Shown: positions 51,504-56,362 of the stretch, piece after piece
Layout: each line of letters starts with the position of its first letter
Position numbering within the stretch: position 1 is the stretch's first letter
Assembly (NCBI RefSeq): GCF_003234565.1
Contig: NZ_QKTU01000010.1
Coordinates: 1 to 64,000 of the forward strand
From: Curtobacterium sp. MCBD17_013
GTDB lineage: Bacteria; Actinomycetota; Actinomycetes; Actinomycetales; Microbacteriaceae
Reading direction: 5' to 3'
DNA length: 64,000 nt
Notes under the pieces: model-generated
What the model saw: only the letters and a program-made list of their open reading frames with translations
What the model was told of the DNA's origin: nothing
The model's database searches: none
Position numbers and translations under genes: made by a program

Positions 51504-51552
51504 CAGCCGCGGGGGCAGCCGCGGGGATCAGCCGCGGGGGTCAGCCGCGGGG
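51504..51552. repeat. Four copies of CAGCCGCGGGG at the citrate synthase 3' end
   Basis: Copies at 51504-51514, 51516-51526, 51529-51539 and 51542-51552, with 1-2 bp between them. The last copy contains the citrate synthase stop codon on the minus strand, so repeat changes could extend or cut the protein's C-terminus. Confidence 0.75.
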
Positions 51553-52887
51553 CGGCAGGTCGCGCTCGGCGTGGCCGAGGTACAGCTGCTGCGGCCGACC
51601 GATCTTGTTCTGCGGGTCGGTGTTGAGCTCGCGCCACTGGGCGATCCACCCGGGCAGCCGGCCGATCGCGAACAGCACGGTGAACATCCGCGGCGAGAAC
51701 CCCATCGCCTTGTAGATGACGCCCGTGTAGAAGTCGACGTTCGGGTACAGCTTCCGCGACACGAAGTACTCGTCCGCGAGCGCGATGCCCTCGAGCTCCA
51801 TGGCGATGTCGAGCAGGTCGTCCTGCACCCCGAGTGCCTCGAGGACCTCGTGGGCGGACTCCTTGACGAGCTTGGCCCGGGGGTCGTAGTTCTTGTAGAC
51901 CCGGTGCCCGAAGCCCATGAGCTTGACGCCGTGTTCCTTGTTCTTCACACGCTCGACGAACCGCGACACCGGCTCGCCCGAGTCACGGATCTTCGCGAGC
52001 ATCTCGAGCACGGCCTCGTTCGCACCACCGTGCAGCGGACCGTAGAGGGCGTTGATCCCCGCCGAGATCGACGCGAACATGTTCGCCTTCGTCGAGCCGA
52101 CGAGTCGCACGGTGGACGTCGACGCGTTCTGCTCGTGGTCCTCGTGCAGGATGAGGAGCCGCTCGAGCGCCTTCGACAGGACCGGGTTGACCTCGAACGG
52201 CTCGGCCATCGTGCCGAAGTTGAGCCGCAGGAAGTTGTCGACGAAGCTCAGCTGGTTGTCCGGGTACAGGAACGCCTGCCCGATGCTCTTCTTGTGCGCG
52301 TAGGCCGCGATCACGGGGAGCTTGGCGAGCAGGCGGACGGTCTGCAGCTCGACCTTCTCGGGGTCGTCGACGTCCATGTCGTCCTCGTAGTAGGTCGACA
52401 GGGCGCTCACCGCGCTCGACAGGACGGACATCGGGTGCGCCGAGTGCGGCAGGGCGTCGAAGAGCCGCCGGAGGTCCTCGTGCAGCAGCGTGTGCCGCCG
52501 GATGCGGTCGTCGAACGCCGCGAGTTCGTCCGCCGTGGGGAGCTCGCCGTAGATGAGGAGCCAAGCGACCTCGAGGTACGTGCAGTTCGCCGCGATCTGC
52601 TCGATCGGGTACCCGCGGTACCGGAGGATCCCCTGCTCGCCGTCGATGTAGGTGATCGAGCTCTTCGTCGCGCTCGTGTTCACGAAGCCGTAGTCGAGCG
52701 TCGTGAAGCCGGTCTGTTTCGTCAACGTCGCGATGTCGATGGCCGACGCACCGTCCGTGCTGCGCAGGATCGGGAACTCGGCGGTACCTCCCGGGTAGTG
52801 GAGGACCGCGGTGGGTGCCGCCTCGTCCGGGGTGCCGGTCGAGGGCAGTGTGGCCGCCTTCTGAGCGTCATTGGCAGTGTCAGTCAC
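51541..52887 (-). CDS. gltA: Citrate synthase
   Basis: A 448-residue type II-like citrate synthase, catalysing entry of acetyl-CoA into the TCA cycle. Catalytic residues: His in NALYGPLHGGANEAVLEML, His in MGFGHRVYKNYDPRAK and Asp in YPNVDFYTGVIYKAMGF. NSTxxRLV-like NASTSTVRLVGSTKANMF is also typical. The Thr/Pro-rich first 25 residues are not conserved. The GTG lies 6 nt after TAGGCT, implying a leaderless mRNA. It sits between dapD and dapC, separating two lysine-pathway genes. Confidence 0.96.
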   Translation of the reverse strand: MTDTANDAQKAATLPSTGTPDEAAPTAVLHYPGGTAEFPILRSTDGASAIDIATLTKQTGFTTLDYGFVNTSATKSSITYIDGEQGILRYRGYPIEQIAANCTYLEVAWLLIYGELPTADELAAFDDRIRRHTLLHEDLRRLFDALPHSAHPMSVLSSAVSALSTYYEDDMDVDDPEKVELQTVRLLAKLPVIAAYAHKKSIGQAFLYPDNQLSFVDNFLRLNFGTMAEPFEVNPVLSKALERLLILHEDHEQNASTSTVRLVGSTKANMFASISAGINALYGPLHGGANEAVLEMLAKIRDSGEPVSRFVERVKNKEHGVKLMGFGHRVYKNYDPRAKLVKESAHEVLEALGVQDDLLDIAMELEGIALADEYFVSRKLYPNVDFYTGVIYKAMGFSPRMFTVLFAIGRLPGWIAQWRELNTDPQNKIGRPQQLYLGHAERDLPPRG

Positions 52888-52942: not shown

Positions 52943-54091
52943 TCAGCGCGGAACCGGCGACTCCGCCGCGTGGTCGGCGACCGGACCGGTCCCGGACGAC
53001 CGCAACCGCACGACCGCGGCATCGATGCGCTCGTCGGTCGAGGTGAGGGCGATGCGCACGTGCGAACCACCAGCACTGCCGTAGAACGTGCCCGGTGCGA
53101 CGAGGATCCCGAGTTCCGCGAGCGCCGCGACCGTGGCCCAGGCGTCCTCGCCGCGCGTCGCCCAGAGGTACAGCCCGGCCTCGCTGCGGTCGATCCGGTA
53201 GCCCGCCGCCACGAGTGCCGACGCCAGGCGGTCGCGCCGTCCCGCGTACCGCGCCTTCTGCTCGCGGACGTGGGCGTCGTCGGCGAGCGCGACGATCATC
53301 GCCTGCTGCACCGGCGCCGGGGGCATCATGCCGGTGTGCTTGCGGACGGCCAGGACCTCGGCCAGCACCCGCGCGTCACCCGCCACGAAGCCGGCGCGGT
53401 AGCCGGCGAGGTTCGACTGCTTGCTCAGCGAGTACACGCTGAGCACGCCGTCGTGCGTGTCACCGACCACGCGGGGGTCGAGGATGCTCGGCGTCGGGGT
53501 GTCGTCGTACGGCGGCTCCCACCCGAGCTCCGCGTAGCACTCGTCGCCCGCGATGACCGCGCCGAGGGCACGGGCTCGCTCGACCGCGACCCGGAGCTCC
53601 TCGATCGACAGCACGCGGCCGTCGGGGTTGCCCGGCGAGTTGAGCCAGACGAGCTTCGTCGACGCCGGCCAGGACGCGGGGTCGTCGGCGGCCAACGCCT
53701 CGGCGCCGACGAGGGCCGCGCCGAGCTCGTAGGTCGGGTAGGCGGCCTCGGGGAACACGACCGTGTCACCGGGGCCGATGCCGAGCCACAGCGCGAGTCC
53801 GGCGATGAACTCCTTCGACCCGATCGTCGGCAGGACCTCGTCCGTCGTCAGGGTGATCCCCTGGCGTCGGCCGTACCAGGCGACGATGGACTCGCGCAGC
53901 GCGGGTGTCCCGGCCACCTGCGGGTAGGCATGGGCGTCCGTGGCGTCAGCGAGAGCGCGACGGACGAGCTCGGGCGTCGGGTCCACGGGCGACCCGACGC
54001 TCAGGTCGACGATGCCGTCCGGGTGGCCGCTCGCGCGATCCTTCGCGGCGGCGAGCTGGTCCCAGGGGAAGTCCGGCAGGTCGAGCGGCAC
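52943..54091 (-). CDS. dapC: Succinyldiaminopimelate transaminase (DapC-type aminotransferase)
   Basis: A 382-residue fold-type I aminotransferase with IVDLSVGSPVDPTPELVRRAL, VFPEAAYPTYELGA, LNSPGNPDGRVL, VIAGDECYAELGW and the PLP-Lys motif VYSLSKQSNLAGYRAGF. It matches the actinobacterial DapC (mycobacterial Rv1178 type) found beside ferredoxin, which transaminates N-succinyl-2-amino-6-ketopimelate. The GTG start comes 3 bp after the ferredoxin stop, so the two are co-transcribed. Acceptance of other substrates cannot be excluded. Confidence 0.9.
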   Translation of the reverse strand: MPLDLPDFPWDQLAAAKDRASGHPDGIVDLSVGSPVDPTPELVRRALADATDAHAYPQVAGTPALRESIVAWYGRRQGITLTTDEVLPTIGSKEFIAGLALWLGIGPGDTVVFPEAAYPTYELGAALVGAEALAADDPASWPASTKLVWLNSPGNPDGRVLSIEELRVAVERARALGAVIAGDECYAELGWEPPYDDTPTPSILDPRVVGDTHDGVLSVYSLSKQSNLAGYRAGFVAGDARVLAEVLAVRKHTGMMPPAPVQQAMIVALADDAHVREQKARYAGRRDRLASALVAAGYRIDRSEAGLYLWATRGEDAWATVAALAELGILVAPGTFYGSAGGSHVRIALTSTDERIDAAVVRLRSSGTGPVADHAAESPVPR

Positions 54092-54094
54092 GGG

Positions 54095-54412
54095 TCAGCC
54101 CCGCGGCGGCTCGGCGAGCACGACCGGGTGGTCCTGGTGGATCACACCGACCTTGGCGGCGCCGCCCGGCGACCCGATCTCCTGGAAGAACTCGACGTTC
54201 GCCTTGTAGTAGTCCGCCCACTCCTCGGGGAGGTCGTCCTCGTAGTAGATGGCCTCCACCGGGCACACCGGCTCACACGCACCGCAGTCGACGCACTCGT
54301 CGGGGTGGATGTAGAGCGAGCGGTCGCCCTCGTAGATGCAGTCGACCGGGCACTCGTCGATGCAGGCGCGGTCCTTGACGTCCACACAGGGCTGGGCGAT
54401 CACGTACGTCAC
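54095..54412 (-). CDS. fdxA: 7Fe ferredoxin (3Fe-4S/4Fe-4S)
   Basis: A 105-residue ferredoxin. CVDVKDRACIDECPVDCIYEG supplies one cluster (the second Cys of a standard CxxC triplet is displaced as in 3Fe-4S sites), and CVDCGACEPVCPVEAIYYE supplies the [4Fe-4S] cluster. The C-terminal extension (EEWADYYKANVEFFQEIG) is typical of actinobacterial FdxA/FdxC. It donates electrons to unidentified redox partners. The GTG start has only weak upstream complementarity. First gene of a ferredoxin-dapC unit, as in mycobacteria. Confidence 0.93.
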   Translation of the reverse strand: MTYVIAQPCVDVKDRACIDECPVDCIYEGDRSLYIHPDECVDCGACEPVCPVEAIYYEDDLPEEWADYYKANVEFFQEIGSPGGAAKVGVIHQDHPVVLAEPPRG

Positions 54413-54449: not shown

Positions 54450-55712
54450 CTACTCCGGGCGGGTGAGCGTCCCCGCCGTCGGCGCCGTGGCGTCGACGGT
54501 GGCCGGACCGCGCTCTCGGCCGTCGGCGGGAACCGTGCCCGCCGGCGGAGCGCCGCGAGGGGGCAACGACGGCCACGCGAGCACGAGCATCGCGATCACG
54601 GCCGGCCCGAACGTCCACACGTACCCGGCCGTGTTCGCGAGGACGAGCGGCGAACTCGTCCCGCCGACCGCCACGAGCACCTGGGTGACGAGCAGGACCC
54701 CGAGCGCCGCCGCCGTCACCATCCACCGGGAGCGGAAGACGAGCCGGACGCCGAGCAGCAGGCACGCGACGAGCAGCGTCGTGATCACCATGCCGACCGG
54801 GAGGCTCCCCAGGGTCTGCTGGTGGGTGATCGTGCCGAGGCCGCCGACCACGGCCCCCGCTGCGAGCGCGGCGACGACGAGCAGTGACTGCACCCCCCGG
54901 CCGTGCTCGGCGAACGTCTGCGCCGCCGGCGCTGCGGGTGGCGCGTCGTGCCGGAAGCCCTCGCGCGCGGGCGCCTCGAGCCGTGCGCCGTGCGGCATGA
55001 CGTACGTCAGGCGCTCGGGCTGCTCGGGGTCGAGGGGATCGACCGTGAGCTGGCTCCGGTACTGCTCGAGCGCGGCACGCACCCGGGGGCGCACCGGCAG
55101 CACGTCGACGACGAGGTCGGCCTGACCGCTGTCGGCGTCGACGATGATCGAGAACGGGACGTCCTCGGCACGGGCGGCGTACCGGGCAGCCGCATGCACC
55201 CGCACGTGGTCCGGGTGTCCGTACCCGCCGTCGTCCGCGTAGCTGACCACGGCATCGGCACCCGTCGAGCGGATCGCCGCGCGGACGTCGTCGACGACCT
55301 CCCCGAGGTCCGCCGCGGTGAGCGAGTCGGCCGGCGCGTCCTCGGCGGCCGTCGCCCGCCCGTCCGCGGCCCACCGCATGCCGGAGTCGCTGTACCGACG
55401 CGGCGGCAGGTCCGTGGGACGGGCGCCGGGGCCGCCGAGCCACAGGTGCCGAGGCCCGCCGAGCGCGGCGAGCGCGGCCGCGATCTCGGTCTCGCGGTGC
55501 GCGGCGACCCGGGGCGCGTCGCCGAAGAGCGGCGCGAGCGCCGGCGTGAGCATCTCGCCGCGTTCACCCCGCGTCGCGGTGAGCACCGTCACGTCGGCAC
55601 CGAGTTCGACCAGGGTCGCGATCGTGCCCCCGGTCGCCAACGTCTCGTCGTCGGGGTGGGCGTGGACGAACAGGACACGCTCGGGGCGCGTCGCCGGGGT
55701 GGGCGTGGACAT
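54450..55712 (-). CDS. MshB-like PIG-L deacetylase fused to a C-terminal membrane domain
   Basis: A 420-residue protein with two parts. Residues ~10-285 are a PIG-L/LmbE deacetylase: VLFVHAHPDDETLATGG (metal His/Asp), VTVLTATRGERGEM, and YADDGGYGHPDHVRVH (second metal His and catalytic region), matching MshB, which deacetylates GlcNAc-inositol in mycothiol synthesis. Residues ~300-390 contain four membrane helices (SLLVVAALAAGAVVGGLGTI, VGMVITTLLVACLLLGVRLV, AALGVLLVTQVLVAVGG, WTFGPAVIAMLVLAWP). In mycobacteria mshB (Rv1170) is followed by a separate membrane gene (Rv1171), so this looks like a fusion. ATG 8 nt after TACCCT. Confidence 0.87.
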   Translation of the reverse strand: MSTPTPATRPERVLFVHAHPDDETLATGGTIATLVELGADVTVLTATRGERGEMLTPALAPLFGDAPRVAAHRETEIAAALAALGGPRHLWLGGPGARPTDLPPRRYSDSGMRWAADGRATAAEDAPADSLTAADLGEVVDDVRAAIRSTGADAVVSYADDGGYGHPDHVRVHAAARYAARAEDVPFSIIVDADSGQADLVVDVLPVRPRVRAALEQYRSQLTVDPLDPEQPERLTYVMPHGARLEAPAREGFRHDAPPAAPAAQTFAEHGRGVQSLLVVAALAAGAVVGGLGTITHQQTLGSLPVGMVITTLLVACLLLGVRLVFRSRWMVTAAALGVLLVTQVLVAVGGTSSPLVLANTAGYVWTFGPAVIAMLVLAWPSLPPRGAPPAGTVPADGRERGPATVDATAPTAGTLTRPE

Positions 55713-55774: not shown

Positions 55775-56362
55775 TCAGCGCGGGGTGACGATGTACGTCG
55801 CGGTCACGCCGTCGTGGCCGGTCGAGAAGGCGAGCACCACGCGGTACCGGTCGCTCCGGAAGAGGCCGAACGCGCTGCGGGCGTCGCTCCGCACGGCACC
55901 GTCCGCGAAGCCGTCCGCGGTGAGCCGAGCGTGTGCCGTCGTGAACTCCGCGACCGAGGCGACGCGGACCTGCACCACCCAGCCCGACCCGGCGGGTCCG
56001 CTCCCCCCGCCGAGGACCGTGCCGTCGACGAGCGGGACGGCGTGGGTCGGGAACCCGGCGGGGACCGCACCGTCGGTCGTCACCGCCGCGCCCCGCAGGG
56101 CGGCGTCGAGCGCGCCGTCGATGCCGCCGGCCACCTGCCGCATCCCGCGCTGGATCGAACCGCCCGTGACGCCCTGGAGGCCCGACCGGACGCCCGACGC
56201 CACCGACGACGCGACCGCCGTCCCGACCCCCGAGACGCGGTCGGTGATCCCGGCGCAACCCGTCAGCCCGACGGCGAGGACCGCCAGGACCGCGGCCGTC
56301 GGCACGACCCGCGGTCGCGCCGCACGGCGATGCGCCCGGCCGGAACGCGGCGTGCGCGACAT
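55775..56362 (-). CDS. Putative lipoprotein, function unknown
   Basis: A 195-residue exported protein. The Arg-rich N-terminus and hydrophobic stretch PTAAVLAVLAVGLTGC form a lipoprotein signal with lipobox LTGC (Cys36), so it should be anchored on the outer face of the membrane. A Gly/Ser/Val-rich helix segment follows, then a beta-rich C-terminus (GWVVQVRVASVAEFTTAHARL ... RYRVVLAFSTGHDG, quoted in parts). No family recognised. The ATG overlaps the stop of the upstream M20 amidohydrolase (TGATG), so the two are co-translated. Confidence 0.75.
   Translation of the reverse strand: MSRTPRSGRAHRRAARPRVVPTAAVLAVLAVGLTGCAGITDRVSGVGTAVASSVASGVRSGLQGVTGGSIQRGMRQVAGGIDGALDAALRGAAVTTDGAVPAGFPTHAVPLVDGTVLGGGSGPAGSGWVVQVRVASVAEFTTAHARLTADGFADGAVRSDARSAFGLFRSDRYRVVLAFSTGHDGVTATYIVTPR

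Follow-up and report, generated by a model that had tools for sequence, protein, structure and literature searches.

The locus and its fused gene

The window, by which we mean the whole stretch of 64,000 nucleotides of Curtobacterium sp. MCBD17_013 DNA that was analysed, contains a reverse-strand gene (product P0001) that joins a PIG-L/LmbE deacetylase domain to four membrane helices and is followed by genes for a ferredoxin (fdxA), a succinyldiaminopimelate transaminase (dapC) and a citrate synthase (Table 1). An earlier, sequence-only reading had described one frame of 420 residues holding a PIG-L deacetylase and four C-terminal helices, and this description is confirmed by the translation, by the PF02585 match, by the hydrophobic segments and by an AlphaFold2 model (mean pLDDT 87.9, with 34 sequences as input). 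The protein upstream of the fusion carries a lipobox-like LTGC near its start, and similar genes occur at several relatives' loci.

Table 1. Features of the fusion gene and its surroundings, in window positions
Feature	Positions	Strand	Remarks
Citrate synthase gene, next after dapC	51541..52887	-	same gene order in many relatives
dapC, succinyldiaminopimelate transaminase	52943..54091	-	3 nt behind fdxA; TIGR03539 554.7 bits, over cut-off
fdxA, actinobacterial ferredoxin	54095..54412	-	37 nt behind fusion gene; NF045480 192.7 bits, over cut-off
Fusion gene (P0001)	54450..55712	-	420 aa plus stop, ATG start
Four-helix membrane domain (DUF6113-related), residues 272-379	54576..54899	-	AlphaFold2 helices; profile match to Streptomyces-type genes
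Linker, residues 262-271	54900..54929	-	mean pLDDT 68 over residues 261-270 (AlphaFold2)
PIG-L/LmbE (MshB-like) deacetylase domain, residues ~8-261	54930..55691	-	PF02585; aligned to Rv1170 MshB
GGYGHPDH motif, residues 162-169	55206..55229	-	Y164, H166, H169 = MshB Tyr142, His144, His147
AHPDDE motif, residues 18-23	55644..55661	-	H19, D22 putative metal ligands (MshB H13, D16) and D21 putative general base (MshB D15), from homology
195-aa putative lipoprotein	55775..56362	-	62 nt before fusion gene; no Pfam or NCBIfam match

It is scarcely credible that the fused frame is an artefact, whether of translation ending before the helices (an objection that the sequence-only reading had raised against itself) or of a sequencing error, and we found no support for such an explanation. 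The 420-codon frame has zero internal stops, and both halves look coding, because GC3 is 0.92 for residues 1-262 and 0.95 for residues 263-400. Nor is the fusion an artefact of assembly, since the identical arrangement is found in L010 and L011 (same genus) and in three Curtobacterium records (L267-L269), two sets that may overlap, and the architecture recurs in many other Microbacteriaceae of many genera, the fusion form being common to L009-L036 in our scan of the family. The closest named relatives among the matches listed are Curtobacterium strains, at 76-78% identity.

The enzyme half resembles MshB

Pfam places the enzyme half in the PIG-L family (PF02585, residues 14-179, 81.7 bits against a gathering cut-off of 28.2), and the HxDD and H metal and base residues of the PIG-L/LmbE superfamily are all present (H19, D21, D22 and H169). 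In structural comparison, the top match to model residues 8-261 is Rv1170 MshB (VIA Z 27.6 and 27.4 to two chains; at Z 27.6, rmsd 2.2, 230 residues aligned and 36% identity), with the next family following at Z 20.8, and MshB also comes first among solved structures by sequence search. The metal, catalytic and substrate residues of MshB given in a review of LmbE-like enzymes are H13, D15, D16, R68, D95, Y142, H144, D146 and H147 (PMC4101496). Counted on the sequence alignment, each has its equivalent in P0001 (H19, D21, D22, R73, D109, Y164, H166, D168 and H169, respectively), and all of these are invariant in both family alignments (A4, A5) except Y164, which is conserved at 90% or above.

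P0001 scores 126.1 bits over positions 1-154 of the 284 of the NCBI model for MshB (TIGR03445, cut-off 224.35 bits), and for this reason we use the name MshB-like and make no assignment to that family; with the Mca model (TIGR03446, cut-off 277.15 bits) it scores 80.8 bits. Its likeness to MshB (Rv1170; PDB 1Q74, 1Q7T, 4EWL) lies in the fold, in all the catalytic and substrate residues checked and in the pathway context, and its differences lie in the sub-cut-off score, a diverged C-terminal part and the four added membrane helices. At some named loci, in Blastococcus and Saccharopolyspora, mshB likewise has fdxA and dapC close by.

Mycothiol genes in the genome

The sequence-only reading had placed the enzyme at the second step of mycothiol synthesis or a related sugar deacetylation and had looked to the rest of the pathway for support. 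Further mycothiol genes are indeed present: MshC (534.2 bits) and MshD (212.0 bits) exceed the NCBI cut-offs, as does Mca (362.8 bits), which is encoded at a locus other than that of the fusion gene (C2:114696-115553), and an MshA-like gene reaches 313.4 bits, under its cut-off of 462.5. Three PIG-L genes are found in all. The third, L002:478-2331 (C23:80083), is one 617-residue frame with a putative methyltransferase-like part and has no match to the MshB model, and the window's fusion gene is the only MshB candidate in the genome. mshA-D and mca are also listed in a Clavibacter genome paper (PMC5358740).

Catalytic residues follow MshC across the family

We surveyed 150 genomes of the Microbacteriaceae, taking E<1e-20 to P0001 as a strong PIG-L match (decayed copies included). 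Strong PIG-L matches occur in 89/150 and MshC (449 bits or more) in 88/150. The two occur together in 82 genomes, MshC by itself in 6 and the PIG-L match by itself in 7, and 55 genomes lack both (Fisher p 4e-26, kinship ignored). One genome scored as MshC-negative (G015, 0.93 Mb) has two matches to the MshC model, the better at 300.6 bits, and may be positive despite this scoring; recounted accordingly, the table becomes 83/6/6/55. Its free-standing PIG-L gene retains AHPDDE and lacks the GGYGHPDH and DSGM motifs, and its convergent neighbour, an MshA-like gene, has its end some 20 nt away (L265:1250-3219). Five of the six MshC-only genomes (G020, G054, G088, G124 and G136) have neither a full-length MshA match nor an MshB-like PIG-L, and MshC may have another use in them. 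The sixth, G053, is an exception to the co-occurrence, with MshC and a full-length MshA-like match and without a PIG-L of the P0001 kind.

The state of the catalytic residues follows the same division. In fused genes the catalytic set, including the equivalent of Tyr142, is intact at 38/41 MshC-positive loci vs 0/13 MshC-negative loci (p 5e-10, kinship ignored; G144, which is cut by a contig end and not decayed, is left out of the count). The catalytic state of the enzyme half thus tracks MshC, which bears out its proposed connection with mycothiol. Two of the three MshC-positive exceptions (G141 and G078, of one genus) have intact free-standing copies elsewhere (L091, L096), for which the simplest reading is duplication followed by complementary decay, leaving a live free copy and a dead fused one; the third, G070, is without a full-length MshA match. 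Free-standing PIG-L genes have intact motifs in 23 of 24 cases. On a weak marker tree of helix domain and FdxA, a kinship-corrected test of co-occurrence yielded just three supported independent pairs (~1.8 agreeing, 0 disagreeing), too few for significance.

Four genomes (G010, G023, G081 and G092) that a two-motif test had left as candidates for active enzymes were rejected, Tyr142 being changed in all four; G010, G081 and G092 keep the fusion with Tyr142 replaced by Phe and lack both MshC and a full-length MshA. At ten loci in family genomes without MshC (L071, L074, L078, L100, L101, L115 and L126-L129), a decayed PIG-L half is still fused in frame to a helix domain that is conserved. These halves are possible pseudoenzymes, with the matches at L078, L128 and L129 being weak and the weak 'decayed' halves scoring 7.7 (G025), 11.3 (G063) and 15.5 bits (G129).

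Two other assignments of the enzyme can be weighed against these data. Mca belongs to the same superfamily, shares its motifs and is encoded in the same genome, and in C. glutamicum Mca is reported to deacetylate weakly, with some mycothiol still being formed when mshB is mutated (PMC4267739). That Mca performs the deacetylation and leaves the fused PIG-L to another job is nevertheless very unlikely, as Mca forms a separate clade (100/100 in a tree of 110 deacetylase domains) and the residues of the fused enzyme are changed where MshC is missing. Mca also differs from P0001 in having no helix domain, and its gene at C2:114696 adjoins a putative greA-like frame.

The second assignment has a eukaryotic model, as eukaryotic PIG-L also combines its PIG-L domain with a membrane segment. 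The fusion might likewise deacetylate a lipid-linked substrate at the membrane, for example GlcNAc-phosphatidylinositol, and not be a mycothiol enzyme. We consider this improbable: the predicted membrane anchoring speaks for it, as does the superfamily shared with PIG-L, which acts on GlcNAc-PI (PMC4101496), but the genomic context of P0001 is mycothiol, intact catalytic residues follow MshC, helix-free members of the family are the sole such PIG-L in many MshC-positive genomes, and MshB is the closest structure.

The helix domain and its relatives

Hydrophobic segments of P0001 at residues 277-295, 308-326, 331-349 and 361-379 coincide with AlphaFold2 helices at 272-296, 306-326, 329-350 and 361-379; structural matches in the PDB barely span this part. 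The mean number of K+R per loop is 1.22 before helix 1, then 0.47, 2.16 and 0.25, and 1.94 after helix 4 (32 rows), and on these charges both ends of the domain are predicted to be inside the cell.

The domain has no Pfam match up to E 1, and with DUF6113 (PF19608, gathering score 27 bits) neither P0001 nor its helix part gives a match, while two free-standing Microbacteriaceae relatives reach 20.6 and 21.3 bits; NCBIfam gives no match for any of six sequences, either free-standing helix genes or the helix regions of larger ones. Profile-profile comparison sets the domain against two groups of genomes that we label mycobacterial-type and Streptomyces-type. The Microbacteriaceae profile matches the Streptomyces-type gene at E 7e-12, the mycobacterial-type gene matches the Streptomyces-type at E 3e-8, and the Microbacteriaceae and mycobacterial types, compared directly, match weakly (E 8e-4, probability 25%). 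DUF6113 is matched at 208 bits by one Streptomyces-type gene and at 25.8 bits, just below the cut-off, by one of mycobacterial type. These profiles suggest that the Microbacteriaceae helix domain is related to DUF6113, with the Streptomyces type as its link to the mycobacterial type. In mycobacteria, the membrane gene neighbouring mshB (Rv1170) is presumably Rv1171. The DUF6113 proteins behind mshB at Streptomyces-type loci share with it the multiple helices and the position, and differ in being separate proteins, the P0001 domain being fused in frame and having no Pfam match.

Fused and split forms beyond the family

Both split and fused forms are found across actinobacteria, where the sequence-only reading had proposed to look for them. 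In a scan of the phylum, 30 MshB loci scored best; at 27 of these a separate same-strand multi-helix frame lies behind mshB, and none was seen at L066-L068 in the flanks covered. Outside the family we considered 20 loci chosen for long frames and 12 from a scan of the order: fusions with both motifs occur at 21 loci in four other Micrococcales groups (f2, f76, f79 and f86), one further fusion is split between frames (G663), the deacetylase and helix genes stand side by side at 8 loci of group f81, and L218 and L222 have no deacetylase beside the helix gene. MshC exceeds its cut-off in all 30 of the outside-family genomes in which the helix gene has a PIG-L as fusion partner or neighbour. Among the best 80 named loci, some of which are truncated by the end of a contig, the fused form occurs at 15 (Curtobacterium, Agrococcus, Rathayibacter, Rhodoluna, Brevibacterium, Kocuria, Arthrobacter castelli and MAGs), 44 have a separate multi-helix frame behind (Streptomyces, Nocardioides, Blastococcus and others; 4 of the 44 are doubtful, with a long frame) and 21 have neither. 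Four records titled as a 'Bifidobacterium breve' MAG or a 'Spirochaetaceae' MAG (L318, L339, L342 and L332) have MshB-like genes that resemble those of other actinobacteria, and we suspect that these titles are wrong for the content.

In the tree of deacetylase domains, from which the free-standing L265 was dropped as its full motif was not found, 22 of the 23 free-standing Microbacteriaceae enzymes form a clade with two Agrococcus fusions (98/95), nested within the fused ones. A single origin of the fusion was tried on this tree and rejected (AU p 4e-6, log-likelihood lower by 195.5), and supported branches force at least 6 changes between fusion and separation.

The helix module stays with fdxA

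A profile of the helix family matches 139 of the 150 family genomes, and its presence is unrelated to the pathway: 80/88 MshC-positive vs 59/62 MshC-negative genomes have it (Fisher p 0.53). Its constant neighbour is fdxA, which lies directly behind the helix gene at 135/139 loci (same strand, start within 400 nt, median 34 nt), one of the remaining loci ending at a contig edge and three being without an fdxA match. The place of the helix locus ahead of fdxA does not depend on a live deacetylase: of the 139 loci, 42 have a fused deacetylase with both main motifs, 13 a decayed or contig-cut fused remnant and 84 no in-frame deacetylase, and in most MshC-negative loci the deacetylase half is decayed or absent. 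All 12 of the further helix-only loci examined in the family, from two genera, belong to genomes without MshC. At one locus (L107, G029) a PIG-L gene lies directly before fdxA in a genome without a helix-domain match, and a former fusion may have lost its helix half there.

These results divide the functional link that the sequence-only reading drew between the two families. An MshB-like enzyme is fused to a membrane family that elsewhere stands behind mshB, and that part of the proposal stands; the tie of the helix family to mycothiol does not, and the argument from fusion to function is weakened, since the family is kept without the pathway and fdxA is its constant neighbour. Because relatives without mycothiol genes keep the helix piece, the deacetylase and the helix piece appear to be joined without mutual dependence. 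It could still be argued that the helix domain has a mycothiol-specific task, such as holding the entire pathway at the membrane or transporting mycothiol or its precursors, and is fused for that reason; the multi-helix frame behind mshB at most top loci of the phylum and the presence of the fusion in several groups favour this. We think it unlikely, given how widely MshC-negative genomes retain the helix family, its place directly before fdxA and the decay or absence of the deacetylase half in most MshC-negative loci.

Interpretation

The gene, its domains, the conservation of its motifs, its synteny and its distribution are established at the level of sequence. In our view the fusion is most likely a membrane-anchored GlcNAc-Ins deacetylase (the MshB step) combined with a separate DUF6113-related module that nearly always precedes fdxA and is independent of mycothiol; it is a variant built of known parts. 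The score below NCBI's MshB cut-off and the exceptions G053, G010, G081, G092 and G015 speak against this reading. We infer the substrate and activity of the protein, as we do its topology and membrane location. The N-terminal zinc hydrolase domain would face the cytoplasm, where D21 would activate a metal-bound water and Y164 stabilise the oxyanion; the loss of acetate would turn GlcNAc-Ins into GlcN-Ins, on which MshC acts. Anchoring in the membrane would fall to the C-terminal four-helix domain, whose two ends would lie inside the cell. Over the history of the Micrococcales, mshB and the helix module would have been fused and separated several times, with decay of the deacetylase half in genomes that have a free-standing copy or lack mycothiol genes.

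A more speculative proposal, to which we give a minor share of our confidence, is that nearly all Microbacteriaceae keep the DUF6113-related helix protein as a partner of FdxA at the membrane, with MshB as a passenger that is repeatedly fused and released. In lineages free of mycothiol, a dead deacetylase half would have persisted for some time as a cytoplasmic domain without catalysis, perhaps one that still binds a ligand or FdxA. If true, mycothiol would be made in fused species next to a membrane site linked to ferredoxin.

In the open-licence literature we found no paper treating Rv1170 and Rv1171 together, none on DUF6113 and none joining a PIG-L deacetylase, a transmembrane part and mycothiol, nor did we find the fusion named in the titles or abstract openings of the papers listed. 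The membrane-anchored deacetylase that we favour supplies a likely identity for MshB in the Microbacteriaceae, where the database cut-off fails to name one, and it means that the deacetylase step of mycothiol synthesis is probably membrane-anchored in several Micrococcales groups. It also offers a warning for the transfer of function from fusions, as the partner domain outlasts the pathway and the enzyme half decays. With the partner domain kept far beyond the pathway in this way, the role of the DUF6113-related module should therefore be sought with fdxA and not with mycothiol.
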